Shown here in pieces: positions 30,887-34,300 of a stretch of DNA of 49,374 bases. Position numbers and translations under genes: made by a program. Source of the DNA: Oscillospiraceae bacterium (lineage in GTDB: Bacteria > Bacillota > Clostridia > Oscillospirales > Ruminococcaceae); the NCBI GenBank assembly GCA_024404815.1, contig JAKSPL010000014.1, positions 1 to 49,374 on the forward strand, written 5' to 3'. How positions within the stretch are numbered: position 1 is the stretch's first letter; each line of letters begins with the position of its first letter. The notes beneath the pieces were generated by a model. It saw only the letters and a list, made by a program, of their open reading frames with translations, was not told where the DNA came from and did not search any database.

Positions 30887-33310
30887 TTATTTTGCCAGCT
30901 TGTAGAACGGGTTGGTGTGCATTTCTTCTTCGTGAGTGCTGGGTTCTGCGCCCATCATAGTGTCGATGACGTCGAAGGAAGTAGCTTCGCCCATAACATT
31001 GTTGTACAGGTTGTAGAGCAGGATGTTGTTTGCATCGTCAGCAGTGATCATGCCGTCAGCAGTAACATCACAGCCATAGAATACGCCGGGATAATCCGTA
31101 GCGGAGCCGGGCAGTTCAACCTGAACGAGTTCGTCCATGTAATCCAAGCCCATAACGGAGTGTTCAAGGTACCAGAGCAGTGCGCAGTTTGCATCGTCTG
31201 CATCGATCTTGGTTTCGTTGAGCTGAGAGTTACCTCTCTGAACGAGGGTTACCTTGAAGGTCTTAACAGCCTGAGTAGCATCGTACTGAACGGGCTTGCC
31301 GTCAACCTGAACATTCTTTTCAGTCAGAGCAGCATTTACCTTTTCAAGACCGGTCTCGTTGAGGAAGGTCTTGATTTCAGCAACCTGATAACCGGTTGCG
31401 CCGAAGGAAGCAGCGTTGGTGTTGGAGAATGTGAAGCAGGTCTGGTCGAGGTCAGCAACCTTTTCGCCAGCGATCTTCAGCTCAGCGTTGAAGCTTTCGA
31501 GGCAGGAGAAGTTTGCGGTTTCCTCGGTCCAGTAGTAACCGATGGAATCGGTCTCGGAATCAGCAACGAGGTCAAAGTCGAAGTTGACGAGGGAAGTAGT
31601 GGTCTCGGTAGTAGAGGTGGTCTCAGTGGTAGAGGTGCTGTCGGTGGTAGAAGTGGTCTCAGTAGTAGAAGTGGTCTCGGTAGTAGAGGTGGTTTCAGTG
31701 GTAGAAGTGGTTTCAGTGGTAGAAGTGGTCTCGGTAGTAGAGGTGGTTTCAGTAGTAGAAGTGGTCTCGGTAGTAGAGGTGGTTTCAGTAGTAGAAGTGG
31801 TCTCAGTAGTAGAGGTGGTTTCAGTAGTAGAAGTGGTCTCAGTAGTAGAGGTGGTTTCAGTAGTGGAAGTAGTCTCAGTAGTAGAGGTGGTTTCAGTAGT
31901 GGAAGTGGTCTCAGTAGTAGAGGTGGTTTCAGTAGTAGAAGTGGTCTCGGTGGTAGTGGTGGTTTCGGTAGTAGTGGTCTCCGGAATCTCCTCGAAGTAC
32001 AGCTTGTCAATGTAACGATATACATTGTAGTAAGCTACTTCTTCGCCTTCCAGCGAAACCTTGACTTCCTTGTGGGAATCAACGCCGGTCAGCTTCAGGT
32101 TCTTTGCAGCCAGTTCCTCAGCATAAGCTTCTTCGCAAGCAGCGAGAACAGCAGCATTCTGATCATCCGGAATGGAGAACTCAGCATTGCCGGAGAAGCC
32201 GTTCAGGGAAACGGTTACATCATAAGCCTGCTTGTAAACAGCGATTGCATCATCAAGGGTGATCTTGATGTCGGTGCCGAAATCAGCAGCGATGTCAACA
32301 GCAGCATCATAGCCCTTGTTTGCGAAATTGCTGGATACGCACGCAGACAGGGATGCGGGGATTCTGCCCAGAGCAGTATCGCGCATATTCTTTGCAGTCT
32401 GGAGAAGGTTGCTGTCATCGATCGCGTCGATTGCAGCAACAGCGGCATCAACATACTTATCGTAAGCGGTATCAAAAGCTGAGTTGTCTTCACTTGCAGC
32501 TTCACCGGAAATACCTTCCAGAGCCTTGTCAACAGCCTTCAGATATGCAACGGAGTTGTTGATCGCATCGGTACACTTCTGCTTGCCGGATTCGGTCAGA
32601 GGCGTCTGAGCGTCAACGGCAGCAACGAGTTCCTTATACTTTTCACCAACATAATCATACATATCATCGCGGTTGTCAGCGATGGTGTACTTCTTGCCGG
32701 TCTCATCGGTGAACTCAACAACAACGTCAACATTCTTGTCGTAATCGCCGAAGTCAACGGTAACCTTGACGGAGCCAGCGATCTGGAAGCCGGACCAGTC
32801 ATATGTGCCTTCAACAGCTGCGCCGGAGTTGTTCATCAGGGTAACCATGCGCTCAGCGATCTGCGGACCGATGTCAGAAAGGACTGCATCTACAACAAGT
32901 TTCGAACCGCTGGCAAAAGCATTGGCATTCGAAACGCCTGCGAGCAGGTCTTCCATTGTGCCGGCAGAGATCTTCTTGGTCTTTGCGACTGCGGAAGCGA
33001 TCAGAGCCTTGGCATCTTCCAGGTCGATATTCATGCAGCCCTTACCGGAAGCGGTGGTCAGGAAAGCATCAGCATAGTCAACCCAGTTGGATTCGCCGGC
33101 CAGAGCAGGCTCGGAGAATTCGTATTCCGGAGCTGCAACGGTTGCCGGAAGCTCGGGCAGAGCTGCGGTATCAACCGGAACGCTGAGGACCTTTTCCTTC
33201 GTGAGTGTCAGAACTGCTCCATCAGCAGCATTGACGGTAGCAACCTGACCGAAAACCATAATAGCGCCGGTCATTGTTGCCAGGGAACGCTTAAAAAGTG
33301 TTTTGTTCAT
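30887..33310 (-). CDS. Secreted surface protein with (STTET)n linker and dockerin-like tail
   Basis: The 807-residue protein starts with a signal peptide (cut near VNA-AD). Residues 30-440 form an alpha-helical, Asp/Ala-rich domain I do not recognise. Residues 443-573 are about 26 units of a 5-residue Thr/Ser/Glu repeat, likely glycosylated. Residues 575-670 are a beta-rich unknown domain, and the tail contains a dockerin-like pair: a degenerate first half (NETKIDADDANCALLWYLEH) and a better second half (CDVTADGMITADDANNILLY). It could be a cellulosome or cell-surface component binding an unusual cohesin. No sortase motif is visible. AGGAGAGG precedes the ATG. Confidence 0.75.
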   Translation of the reverse strand: MNKTLFKRSLATMTGAIMVFGQVATVNAADGAVLTLTKEKVLSVPVDTAALPELPATVAAPEYEFSEPALAGESNWVDYADAFLTTASGKGCMNIDLEDAKALIASAVAKTKKISAGTMEDLLAGVSNANAFASGSKLVVDAVLSDIGPQIAERMVTLMNNSGAAVEGTYDWSGFQIAGSVKVTVDFGDYDKNVDVVVEFTDETGKKYTIADNRDDMYDYVGEKYKELVAAVDAQTPLTESGKQKCTDAINNSVAYLKAVDKALEGISGEAASEDNSAFDTAYDKYVDAAVAAIDAIDDSNLLQTAKNMRDTALGRIPASLSACVSSNFANKGYDAAVDIAADFGTDIKITLDDAIAVYKQAYDVTVSLNGFSGNAEFSIPDDQNAAVLAACEEAYAEELAAKNLKLTGVDSHKEVKVSLEGEEVAYYNVYRYIDKLYFEEIPETTTTETTTTTETTSTTETTSTTETTSTTETTSTTETTSTTETTSTTETTSTTETTSTTETTSTTETTSTTETTSTTETTSTTETTSTTETTSTTETTSTTETTSTTETTSTTDSTSTTETTSTTETTTSLVNFDFDLVADSETDSIGYYWTEETANFSCLESFNAELKIAGEKVADLDQTCFTFSNTNAASFGATGYQVAEIKTFLNETGLEKVNAALTEKNVQVDGKPVQYDATQAVKTFKVTLVQRGNSQLNETKIDADDANCALLWYLEHSVMGLDYMDELVQVELPGSATDYPGVFYGCDVTADGMITADDANNILLYNLYNNVMGEATSFDVIDTMMGAEPSTHEEEMHTNPFYKLAK
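31592..31984 (-). repeat. Minisatellite of about 26 15-bp units
   Basis: The region coding for the Thr/Ser/Glu linker is a 15-bp tandem repeat with only synonymous and Ser/Thr differences. The antisense frames therefore look like long valine-rich reading frames, which are artefacts. Copy number is probably variable. Confidence 0.9.
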
Positions 33311-33478: not shown

Positions 33479-33698
33479 GTGTTTTTTTTCGAATTGGCTA
33501 TTTGCAACAATCATCTTGTATAGCCTTCTGCCCGTTTAGTCATTTCTCCAGTTTTTCTGCTAATTTTTGGCGGTTTCTAATGTCAGTTTTGCGTGCTTTT
33601 TCGTATATTTGTGCAACATTGCCCATTTTTCCATTCTTGTGCAAGTTTTACAAGTATTGGTCAAAATATAAAAATATATAAATTTTCTATAAAAGCTA

Positions 33699-33727
33699 TT
33701 GACATTTATTGAAATGTATGGTATATT
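33699..33727 (+). promoter_or_regulatory. Promoter of the mini-cistron array transcript
   Basis: A consensus TTGACA (33699-33704) and TATATT (33722-33727) are 17 bp apart, pointing into a stretch with no ordinary gene. Confidence 0.8.
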
Positions 33728-33782
33728 ATATACAGAGATAAGACATGAACAGTACCAGATGTTCAAACCTCTGAATACCTTG

Positions 33783-34055
33783 AAAGGATGTGTGACCAAT
33801 GTAATACCCGAAGAACACCACCGCATACCGCGGAATCGAAACATACATTTTAACAAAGGATGTGCTTCCAATGGGTACGATGTTCTCCTGAACGGTTTCC
33901 GTTCAATTACGATCAATTTGAAAAAAGGACGTGTTTCCAATGGGTCATATGGAACAATCAATGAAATTTTAATCTCACGAAAAGGACGTGTTTCCAATGG
34001 GTAGCTTAGGCTCCATCATCAAATGATACTTCAAGGAAAGGGCGTGCTTCCAATG
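33783..34055 (+). repeat. Five dispersed copies of an SD-ATG repeat module
   Basis: The consensus is AAAGGAYGTGYTTCCAATG, usually followed by GGT. Copies lie at about 33783-33801, 33855-33876, 33924-33945, 33981-34002 and 34037-34055; the ATG positions are 33799, 33871, 33940, 33997 and 34053. AAAGGNYGTG differs by one base from the ideal ribosome binding site AAAGGAGGTG. Intervening sequences are unrelated. Confidence 0.85.
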
Positions 34056-34143
34056 TACGATTCTGACAACTGCCCGACGCAACTCGCGGGCATTCATACA
34101 GCCGCCCAGCCCGTGTACGGCGGCTGATATTTCTTGATGTGTC

Positions 34144-34168
34144 TGCCGGTATGAACTGCATACCGGCA
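34144..34168 (+). terminator. Terminator of the mini-cistron array transcript
   Basis: A perfect 10-bp stem (TGCCGGTATG / CATACCGGCA) with a 5-nt loop is followed by CTTATTTTTATA. Confidence 0.85.
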
Positions 34169-34189
34169 CTTATTTTTATATAAAACAAG

Positions 34190-34218
34190 AACGCCCCGTC
34201 CATCATGGACGAGGCGTT
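34190..34218. terminator. Terminator of tRNA-Val, possibly bidirectional
   Basis: AACGCCCCGTCCAT / ATGGACGAGGCGTT forms a strong hairpin with T-rich flanks on both strands, just downstream of the minus-strand tRNA. Confidence 0.8.
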
Positions 34219-34226
34219 TTTTCTGG

Positions 34227-34300
34227 TGAGGACAAGTGGACTTGAACCACCGACCCCCTGCATGTCAAGCAGGTACTCTAACCAACTGAGCTATGCCCTC
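34227..34300 (-). tRNA. tRNA-Val (anticodon GAC)
   Basis: The minus strand folds as a cloverleaf: acceptor GAGGGCA pairs with TGTCCTC, D arm GCTCAGTTGGTTAGAGT, anticodon stem CCTGC/GCAGG with loop TTGACAT and anticodon GAC, and T arm GGTTCAAGTCC. CCA is not encoded. Confidence 0.95.

Follow-up and report, generated by a model that had tools for sequence, protein, structure and literature searches.

A tandem array of start-stop minigenes in a Ruminococcaceae bacterium and its relatives, a candidate ribosome-occupying RNA

Translated frames of only two codons are known from lambda bar, and two stand-alone RNAs offer further points of comparison for short initiation modules: CsrB, a sponge RNA with many repeated modules that resemble ribosome binding sites (RBSs), and 6S RNA, which binds RNA polymerase. 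Here we analyze an array of repeated translation-initiation modules in a contig of 49,374 nucleotides (nt) from an Oscillospiraceae bacterium (GTDB family Ruminococcaceae; GenBank assembly GCA_024404815.1, contig JAKSPL010000014.1), the whole of which we refer to as the window. Positions 33699-34224 form a predicted transcription unit, comprising a promoter, five modules, a hairpin whose loop holds CCCGUG and two terminator-like hairpins. Judged from sequence, this is an RNA of ~0.3-0.6 kb whose body consists of tandem start-stop minigenes. We read it as a stand-alone RNA whose minigenes engage ribosomes and which most likely serves as a decoy, holding initiating ribosomes in futile cycles, and our confidence in that reading falls a little short of even. 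The module, its conservation and its requirement for a stop we regard as established by comparison among genomes; the promoter and terminators are predicted.

The array resembles CsrB and RsmZ in being a stand-alone RNA with many RBS-like modules but differs in its conserved AUGs and stops and in that CsrA was found in none of 30 genomes of the genus. The likeness to 6S RNA is one of how the RNA might work, as an RNA occupying a core gene-expression machine. Closer in sequence layout are the translated minigenes of bacterial leaders, of which excerpts of one report name mg2 of axe-txe, the ler and esp mini-open reading frames (ORFs) of enterohemorrhagic Escherichia coli (EHEC) and toxic minigenes; the effects proposed there are protection of the mRNA by ribosomes, or toxicity through peptidyl-tRNA release (PMC8708949). 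The modules share with these a strong Shine-Dalgarno (SD) sequence, an AUG, one or a few codons and a stop. The minigenes described in those excerpts act in cis on a downstream gene and come as one or two, whereas here a predicted stand-alone RNA, present in several genera, has two to nine modules as its body. By the features of translated minigenes, AUG is present in 97 of 98 modules and the frame is closed in 75 of 75, and translation is predicted.

Three further systems share single features with the array. The AUG-stop upstream ORF (uORF) of plant NIP5;1, AUGUAA, is presented in part of PMC11915504 as a minimal ribosome-engaging element; module 1 of the window also reads AUGUAA, but the plant site is eukaryotic, single, cis-acting and boron-dependent. 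A noncoding RNA survey of 50 genomes describes, in the section on its uORF motif, an SD-like region and AUG between stems, with an in-frame stop often in P2 (PMC11109978); that motif is a single uORF before a fixed gene, and ours is a tandem array. In Staphylococcus aureus, according to an excerpt of PMC13009471, SD-antiSD pairing can go beyond the core and, on the side proximal to the start codon, take in the AU of the 16S tail. There the extended pairing selects ordinary mRNA starts, whereas the array adds predicted pairing between CC and the GG of the tail, and has the site in tandem.

The features of the array are as follows; duplex energies are predictions for pairing with the tail of 16S ribosomal RNA (16S), and the core site of each module is given in parentheses.

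33699-33727, + strand: promoter TTGACA-17-TATATT, its -10 box extended by a preceding TG, 11/12 matches
33783-33804, + strand: module 1 (33783-33801), AAAGGATGTGTGACCAATG, frame ATG-TAA (M, stop), duplex -17.0 kcal/mol
33855-33891, + strand: module 2 (33855-33873), AAAGGATGTGCTTCCAATG, frame MGTMFS, stop, duplex -13.9 kcal/mol
33889-33905, + strand: hairpin TGAACGG-TTT-CCGTTCA in the predicted fold, its 5' arm starting with the module-2 stop codon
33924-33972, + strand: module 3 (33924-33942), AAAGGACGTGTTTCCAATG, frame MGHMEQSMKF, stop, duplex -14.0 kcal/mol
33981-34026, + strand: module 4 (33981-33999), AAAGGACGTGTTTCCAATG, frame MGSLGSIIK, stop, duplex -14.0 kcal/mol
34037-34127, + strand: module 5 (34037-34055), AAAGGGCGTGCTTCCAATG, 24-codon frame crossing the conserved 3' hairpin, duplex -16.9 kcal/mol
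34100-34125, + strand: 3' hairpin AGCCGCC-(CAGCCCGTGTAC)-GGCGGCT with CCCGTG in the loop, flank pairing judged by eye
34144-34168, + strand: terminator-like hairpin, then CTTATTTTTA, from the terminator-like site scan
34189-34224, both strands: second terminator-like hairpin from the same scan, between the array and a convergent tRNA-Val gene

The five modules follow the consensus AAAGGRYGUG-NNN-CC-R-AUG. Four of them match AAAGGRYGTGYTTCCAATG exactly and module 1 has two mismatches. An earlier sequence-only reading had described five repeated initiation modules, each opening a tiny frame, and both the modules and the five frames are present as it gave them. Dinucleotide shuffling of the window gave five or more matches (at up to three mismatches) in 0 of 100 shuffles, with a mean of 0.05. 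That reading's 24-codon peptide ending in VYGG holds as a frame; since the frame runs across the 3' hairpin at 34100-34125, its last codons may reflect the structure of the RNA and not a peptide.

The possibility that the modules are repeats within an ordinary protein-coding gene, or arose by chance, is the one we consider hardest to sustain. In the window, modules 1 to 4 stand at distances divisible by three inside a 101-amino-acid (aa) TTG frame, and one of six frames is open across the modules in 12 of the 26 arrays that we read in the genus. The open frame is, however, not the same between arrays, and all six are stopped in the window and in L020, the locus with the most similar neighbor gene (handles denote L, locus; G, genome; g, genus; f, family). 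Among 75 module spacings, 26, 21 and 28 leave remainders of 0, 1 and 2 modulo three, and in-frame stops are favored. The spacings and the varying open frame refute a long conserved coding frame across the modules, which the sequence-only reading had named as an outcome that would overturn it.

The promoter and terminator that the same reading placed around the array also find support. The best match in the 400 nt upstream (at most two mismatches) has TTGACA and a 17-nt spacer in all 26 genus arrays, with TATAAT as the -10 box in 24 and TATATT in two. Between 33400 and 34500 there are six promoter-like sites (2.9 ± 1.6 in shuffles) and six terminator-like sites (1.4 ± 1.4). Terminator-like hairpins stand at 34144-34168 (+) and 34190-34218 (-), the second of which has a shorter plus-strand version at 34197-34211. 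Terminators included, the segment 33733-34224 is predicted to fold better than its 100 shuffles (z -4.96).

As the sequence-only reading had proposed, we searched related genomes for tandem modules; of the 30 genomes in the genus, 26 have arrays that we could read. The module itself (at most one mismatch) occurs in 27 of the 30, this one included, and in two of 70 other relatives, as a single copy in each. L013 in G011 also matched the module but is a different RNA near 6S and was left out of the 26. A covariance model of modules 1 and 2, R1, matches the same 26 genomes at E <= 1.5e-7, 23 of them by construction since its training sequences came from 23 of the array genomes; it found no match in G002 or G012, and G011 and G013 matched only at E >= 8.8e-4. 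A tandem pattern run over 84,980 GTDB species returned 10 loci, apparently all from the same genus, in Ruminococcus or Oscillospiraceae metagenome-assembled genomes, five of them labeled as from the rumen, omasum or rectum of water buffalo or sheep.

Searching with R1 brought out divergent arrays in other genera as well. Looser arrays (GGUGNNNCCRAUG, usually zero to four more codons, then a stop) occur in ten further genera, bringing the total within the order to four families. The tandem pattern AGGTGNNNCCRATG matched 13 of 297 genomes of the family, in g130, g145, g150, g159 and g10, with no match for the reversed control. A start-codon-stop pattern also matched 13 of the 297, including all four sampled g97 genomes (matched letters only). 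A scan of the order matched 12 of 394 genomes (reversed control, matches in three genomes), of which three carry g145 arrays and five carry new ones: L127 and L128 in f24, L129 in f13, and L130 and L131 in f20. In the other four (G406, G640, G429 and G636) the matched letters, taken by themselves, resemble coding repeats. A scan of the class matched four of 391 genomes (18 of them of the same order; reversed control, a match in G396), and two of the four are g145 arrays. Spread beyond the order was rejected, as the two matches among the 373 remaining class genomes (G791 and G808) look like coding repeats on the same basis. We also rejected a phage or plasmid origin, having found no array match in phages or plasmids. 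In IMG/VR the genus tandem pattern gave no locus, a single-module search gave two contigs with one copy each, and a looser tandem pattern gave 11 loci that look like coding repeats, with an open frame running through eight and no open 450-base-pair (bp) frame in the other three (L169, L171 and L173).

Within the genus the arrays have two to six modules by the strict pattern, at a median spacing of 68 nt (51-143). A wider module search, which demanded the second C but neither the first C nor the ATG, yielded 98 modules; ATG stands at the expected position in 97 of these and is shifted by one base in the remaining one, and CC is present in 97. The first module mostly reads GGAGGCGUUNCC-R-AUG-GGC-stop, in the variants ATGGGCTGA (12 arrays), ATGGGCTAA (three) and ATGGGCTAG (one), with one extra codon in five; the other five of the 26 differ. 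The second module typically begins AUG CAG AAG UAC and has its stop inside a hairpin.

The frames themselves are consistently closed. For this analysis we took the 101 modules matching GG[AG]N7-8CC[ACG]ATG, a pattern that demands both CC and ATG, 75 of which are followed by another module. All 75 have an in-frame stop before that next module, compared with 34 and 39 in the other two frames and with 48.96 ± 4.1 (maximum 62) in 2,000 shuffles. The stop codons interchange (TGA 35, TAA 34, TAG 6). Internal frames span 1-13 codons including the AUG, 36 of the 75 having one to three, and last-module frames span 2-34. The stop-bearing pattern recurs in different families. Taking the longest run of modules no more than 130 nt apart at each of 15 loci outside the genus (among them the near-identical pairs L107/L116 and L111/L115), we find 44 of 47 frames closed, compared with 35.4 ± 2.9 in shuffles, of which 2/2,000 reach 44; the median frame is two codons, against a shuffle median of 8.0 (minimum 4). 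These comparisons indicate that a stop within the frame is favored in the modules.

The stops also tend to lie in hairpins. Among 96 modules with a stop within 80 nt, 26 have it in the loop of a hairpin of at least 4 bp, compared with 6.9 ± 2.3 (maximum 14) in 200 shuffles. The module-2 stop lies in a hairpin in many other arrays, mostly in the loop, and the upper pair of this hairpin varies among A-U, U-A, C-G and G-C; in L038 the loop holds no stop, and a TAA occurs earlier, two codons past the AUG. Toward the 3' end, CCCGTG is found in 25 of 26 genus arrays, L022 having TTCGTG. The sequence-only reading had held that only the initiation signal is conserved; that signal is conserved, but so are the in-frame stops, the stop-codon hairpins and a 3' element, CCCGTG[CT][AG]. 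Pairing between modules 1 and 2 was also considered and dropped because RNAalifold gave no compensatory change in nine pairs; we make no claim for it.

These features bear on the main rival to the decoy reading, an RNA controlled by ribosome occupancy, in which translating ribosomes would shield or unfold a structured RNA, or act as its sensor, while its actual function lay elsewhere, for instance in the 3' hairpin loop. Stops would then be placed in hairpins because a ribosome terminating there and the hairpin in its folded state are mutually exclusive. The excess of stops in hairpin loops, the varying upper pair of the module-2 hairpin and the near-universal CCCGTG in the genus are all in its favor, and the two-codon minigene of axe-txe is proposed, in excerpts of PMC8708949, to stabilize its mRNA in cis through ribosome protection. 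Outside the genus, however, CCCGTG[CT][AG] occurs within 700 nt of only one of 15 arrays (L112), and there upstream. The segments after the AUG are, moreover, only weakly more stable than their shuffles (mean z -0.49 over the 91 modules with a stop within 80 nt that satisfy the length limits). We consider this alternative somewhat unlikely, although it is the strongest of those weighed here. CCCGTGCA is also present in the L112 RNA of g159, 272 nt before the first module. In the genus, 11 of 26 arrays have GGTATAG ahead of the terminator (L009, L010, L014, L018, L019, L021, L022, L023, L033, L035 and L038), often within a CCGG...CCGG-like hairpin.

The modules are predicted to pair unusually well with the ribosome. 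The 16S 3' end, GGCTGGATCACCTCCTTTCT, was taken from three relatives in the family, no 16S match having been found in this genome; its single-stranded tail is GGAUCACCUCCUUU. The predicted duplex between module and tail has a median of -15.7 kcal/mol, compared with -9.5 at 78 gene starts, of which 9% are as strong as the modules, the modules being stronger than 91%. Those starts are of ORFs of at least 200 aa from the window and nine loci, each scored by the best pairing of up to eight candidate starts, a procedure that favors the genes; for 46 window ORFs chosen earlier by looser criteria the mean was -10.0. In 92 of 101 modules the predicted duplex joins the CC to the first GG of the tail, and replacing this CC costs 3.5 kcal/mol on average. 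At gene starts CC occupies positions -3 and -2 in only four of 78. With the conserved CC taking up the first letters of the tail in these predictions, a module can pair with nearly all of the tail, and the duplex can reach to 1-2 nt before the AUG. A duplex of that extent should partly open for placement in the P site.

RBS-like modules could instead mimic ribosome binding sites for an RNA-binding protein, as in a CsrB/RsmZ-like sponge. Multivalent modules containing GGA, as most genus modules do, resemble CsrA targets. Outside the genus, however, GGA lies upstream in only seven of 62 modules, and a sponge needs neither the AUG nor the in-frame stops that are kept almost without exception. A sponge of this kind is improbable because CsrA (PF02599) was found in none of the 30 genus genomes, 13 of which are at least 90% complete with at most 5% contamination, while the control was positive in three of 14.

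We rate about equally low an operon of tiny functional peptides, whether signals or toxins, which the sequence-only reading had offered as one option. Certain peptides do recur: MG, MGR and MYR, each followed directly by a stop, are found both within the genus and outside it, and ME and MD followed by a stop recur in g130. Many frames are nevertheless very short (nearly half of the internal ones have three codons or fewer, AUG included), which makes a peptide function unlikely, and the stop persists although the frames differ in length and sequence. All 11 occurrences of MQKY use the same codons, CAG AAG TAC, which hints at constraint at the RNA level, although the rows share ancestry and, in a different module, an MQK of L033 uses AAA.

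The surroundings of the array include two further features of the window.

30887-33310, - strand: divergent gene for an 807-aa secreted-type protein with TTSTTE repeats, outside the RNA; no Pfam match
34224-34300, - strand: tRNA-Val gene, convergent to the array

The divergent secreted-type gene is the conserved neighbor of the array in the genus: with the first 330 aa as query, tblastn found a secreted-type homolog at 21 of the 25 other array loci, and the remaining four (L011, L025, L030 and L037) have a neighbor with a similar N-terminus by eye. The repeats coding for TTSTTE-type sequence lie at 31542-32015, where frames are open on both strands, and two C-terminal segments of the protein (30887-31579, -) appear dockerin-like by eye, with no match in Pfam. 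The tRNA-Val gene, near which the sequence-only reading had proposed to search, does not generally accompany the array: a tRNA stands at only one of five genus loci scanned. Upstream of it is a TTGACA-17-TATAAT promoter-like site with TG (34341-34313, -; 12/12 matches).

This conserved neighbor is the argument for a leader or attenuator of an adjoining gene, or for a regulator of the secreted-protein gene. That gene is transcribed away from the array, however, and terminator-like sites end the unit. A leader peptide, another option of the sequence-only reading, is disfavored because downstream genes vary between genomes: by eye, the downstream ORFs of the 26 genus loci include groES-like, cysS-like and transporter-like genes, among others, and in the window the gene is PfkB by Pfam. 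Arrays outside the genus adjoin other genes again. In several other genera the array belongs to an RNA-like stretch of greater length, with a DUF1292 gene running divergently from it (Pfam, five of five tested), near 6S RNA at some loci, and one array outside the genus has a neighbor that is argG-like by eye. We regard control of a neighbor as improbable, though a shade less so than the sponge or the peptide operon.

In g130, g145, g150 and g10, 6S RNA lies ~0.8-1.2 kb from the nearest module, with the DUF1292 gene between them where this was examined (L055, L058, L067, L088, L091 and L110); at the g159 locus 6S RNA was not found. Within the genus, 6S RNA was detected in 28 of 30 genomes, 22 of them over the cut-off, and a second long RNA-like intergenic stretch beside it carries one module, e.g., GGAAAGG..GTGTGAGTCCAATGGA. 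This stretch occurs in L117 (7943, +), L119 (3942, -), L122 (3607, -) and L126 (3304, -), and also in L118, L120 and L123, has a TTGACA/TATAAT promoter-like site by eye, and gave no Rfam match in L117-L120.

The sequence-only reading knew of no described system like this one and had named membership in a known RNA family as an outcome that would count against it. Rfam places no family over the array in the window or in 27 locus records (some overlapping, five of them genus arrays), finding only tRNA and 6S beside arrays. The 6S family itself (RF00013) has no match in the window or on the arrays scanned, and when 33600-34250 was scanned by E-value, each of the 11 hits fell short of the gathering score of its family, the best of them lying over the terminator region. 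A search of the open-access literature found no RNA built from repeated start-stop minigenes, although absence there is not proof.

Of the options in the sequence-only reading, ribosome titration fits best. Under the decoy reading, each module would be a complete translation-initiation site that recruits a ribosome, which would initiate at the AUG, terminate almost at once and be recycled without a useful product, so that the RNA would act through the ribosomes it occupies and not through what they make. As a multivalent decoy it might tie up initiating 30S or 70S ribosomes, or initiator tRNA and factors, and whenever it is made translation could be tuned or ribosomes parked. We infer transcription, ribosome recruitment, the futile initiation-termination cycles and any net effect on free ribosomes from the layout of the array. 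Because relatives keep the same layout, we suggest that the RNA is of a kind not described before, one that would occupy ribosomes without yielding useful protein. The broader proposal, an order-wide dedicated class of such RNAs with near-full complementarity to the 16S tail, which sequesters or parks initiating ribosomes as a translational counterpart of 6S RNA, is more tentative still, and we hold it at roughly one chance in three.

Several observations weigh against the decoy reading. Four of the 30 genus genomes have no clear array, including G002, which is 97% complete, and outside the genus L130 and L131 have no promoter match upstream. In 74 of 101 modules the core SD has a mismatched pyrimidine (GGAYG, not GGAGG), so that core binding is not maximized. 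In predicted folds the modules are hardly more accessible than the rest of the RNA (mean unpaired 0.457 and 0.437), the modules having the higher value in 16 of 26 arrays. Since the arrays of the genus share descent, their 75 closed frames are not independent; outside the genus, the first ORFs of L129, L130 and L131 enter the next module. A pure titrator would not need the stops, the hairpins or the 3' element, which suggest an added function in cis or in trans, and immediate stops would free ribosomes quickly, working against long sequestration. Both the transcription and the translation of the array are, finally, predictions.

Functional RNAs of this kind may escape ORF finders, for which their frames are too short, and RNA-family builders, for which they have too little structure. 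If ribosomes do cycle on these RNAs, the arrays would be an RNA-level means of setting the supply of free ribosomes in bacteria.
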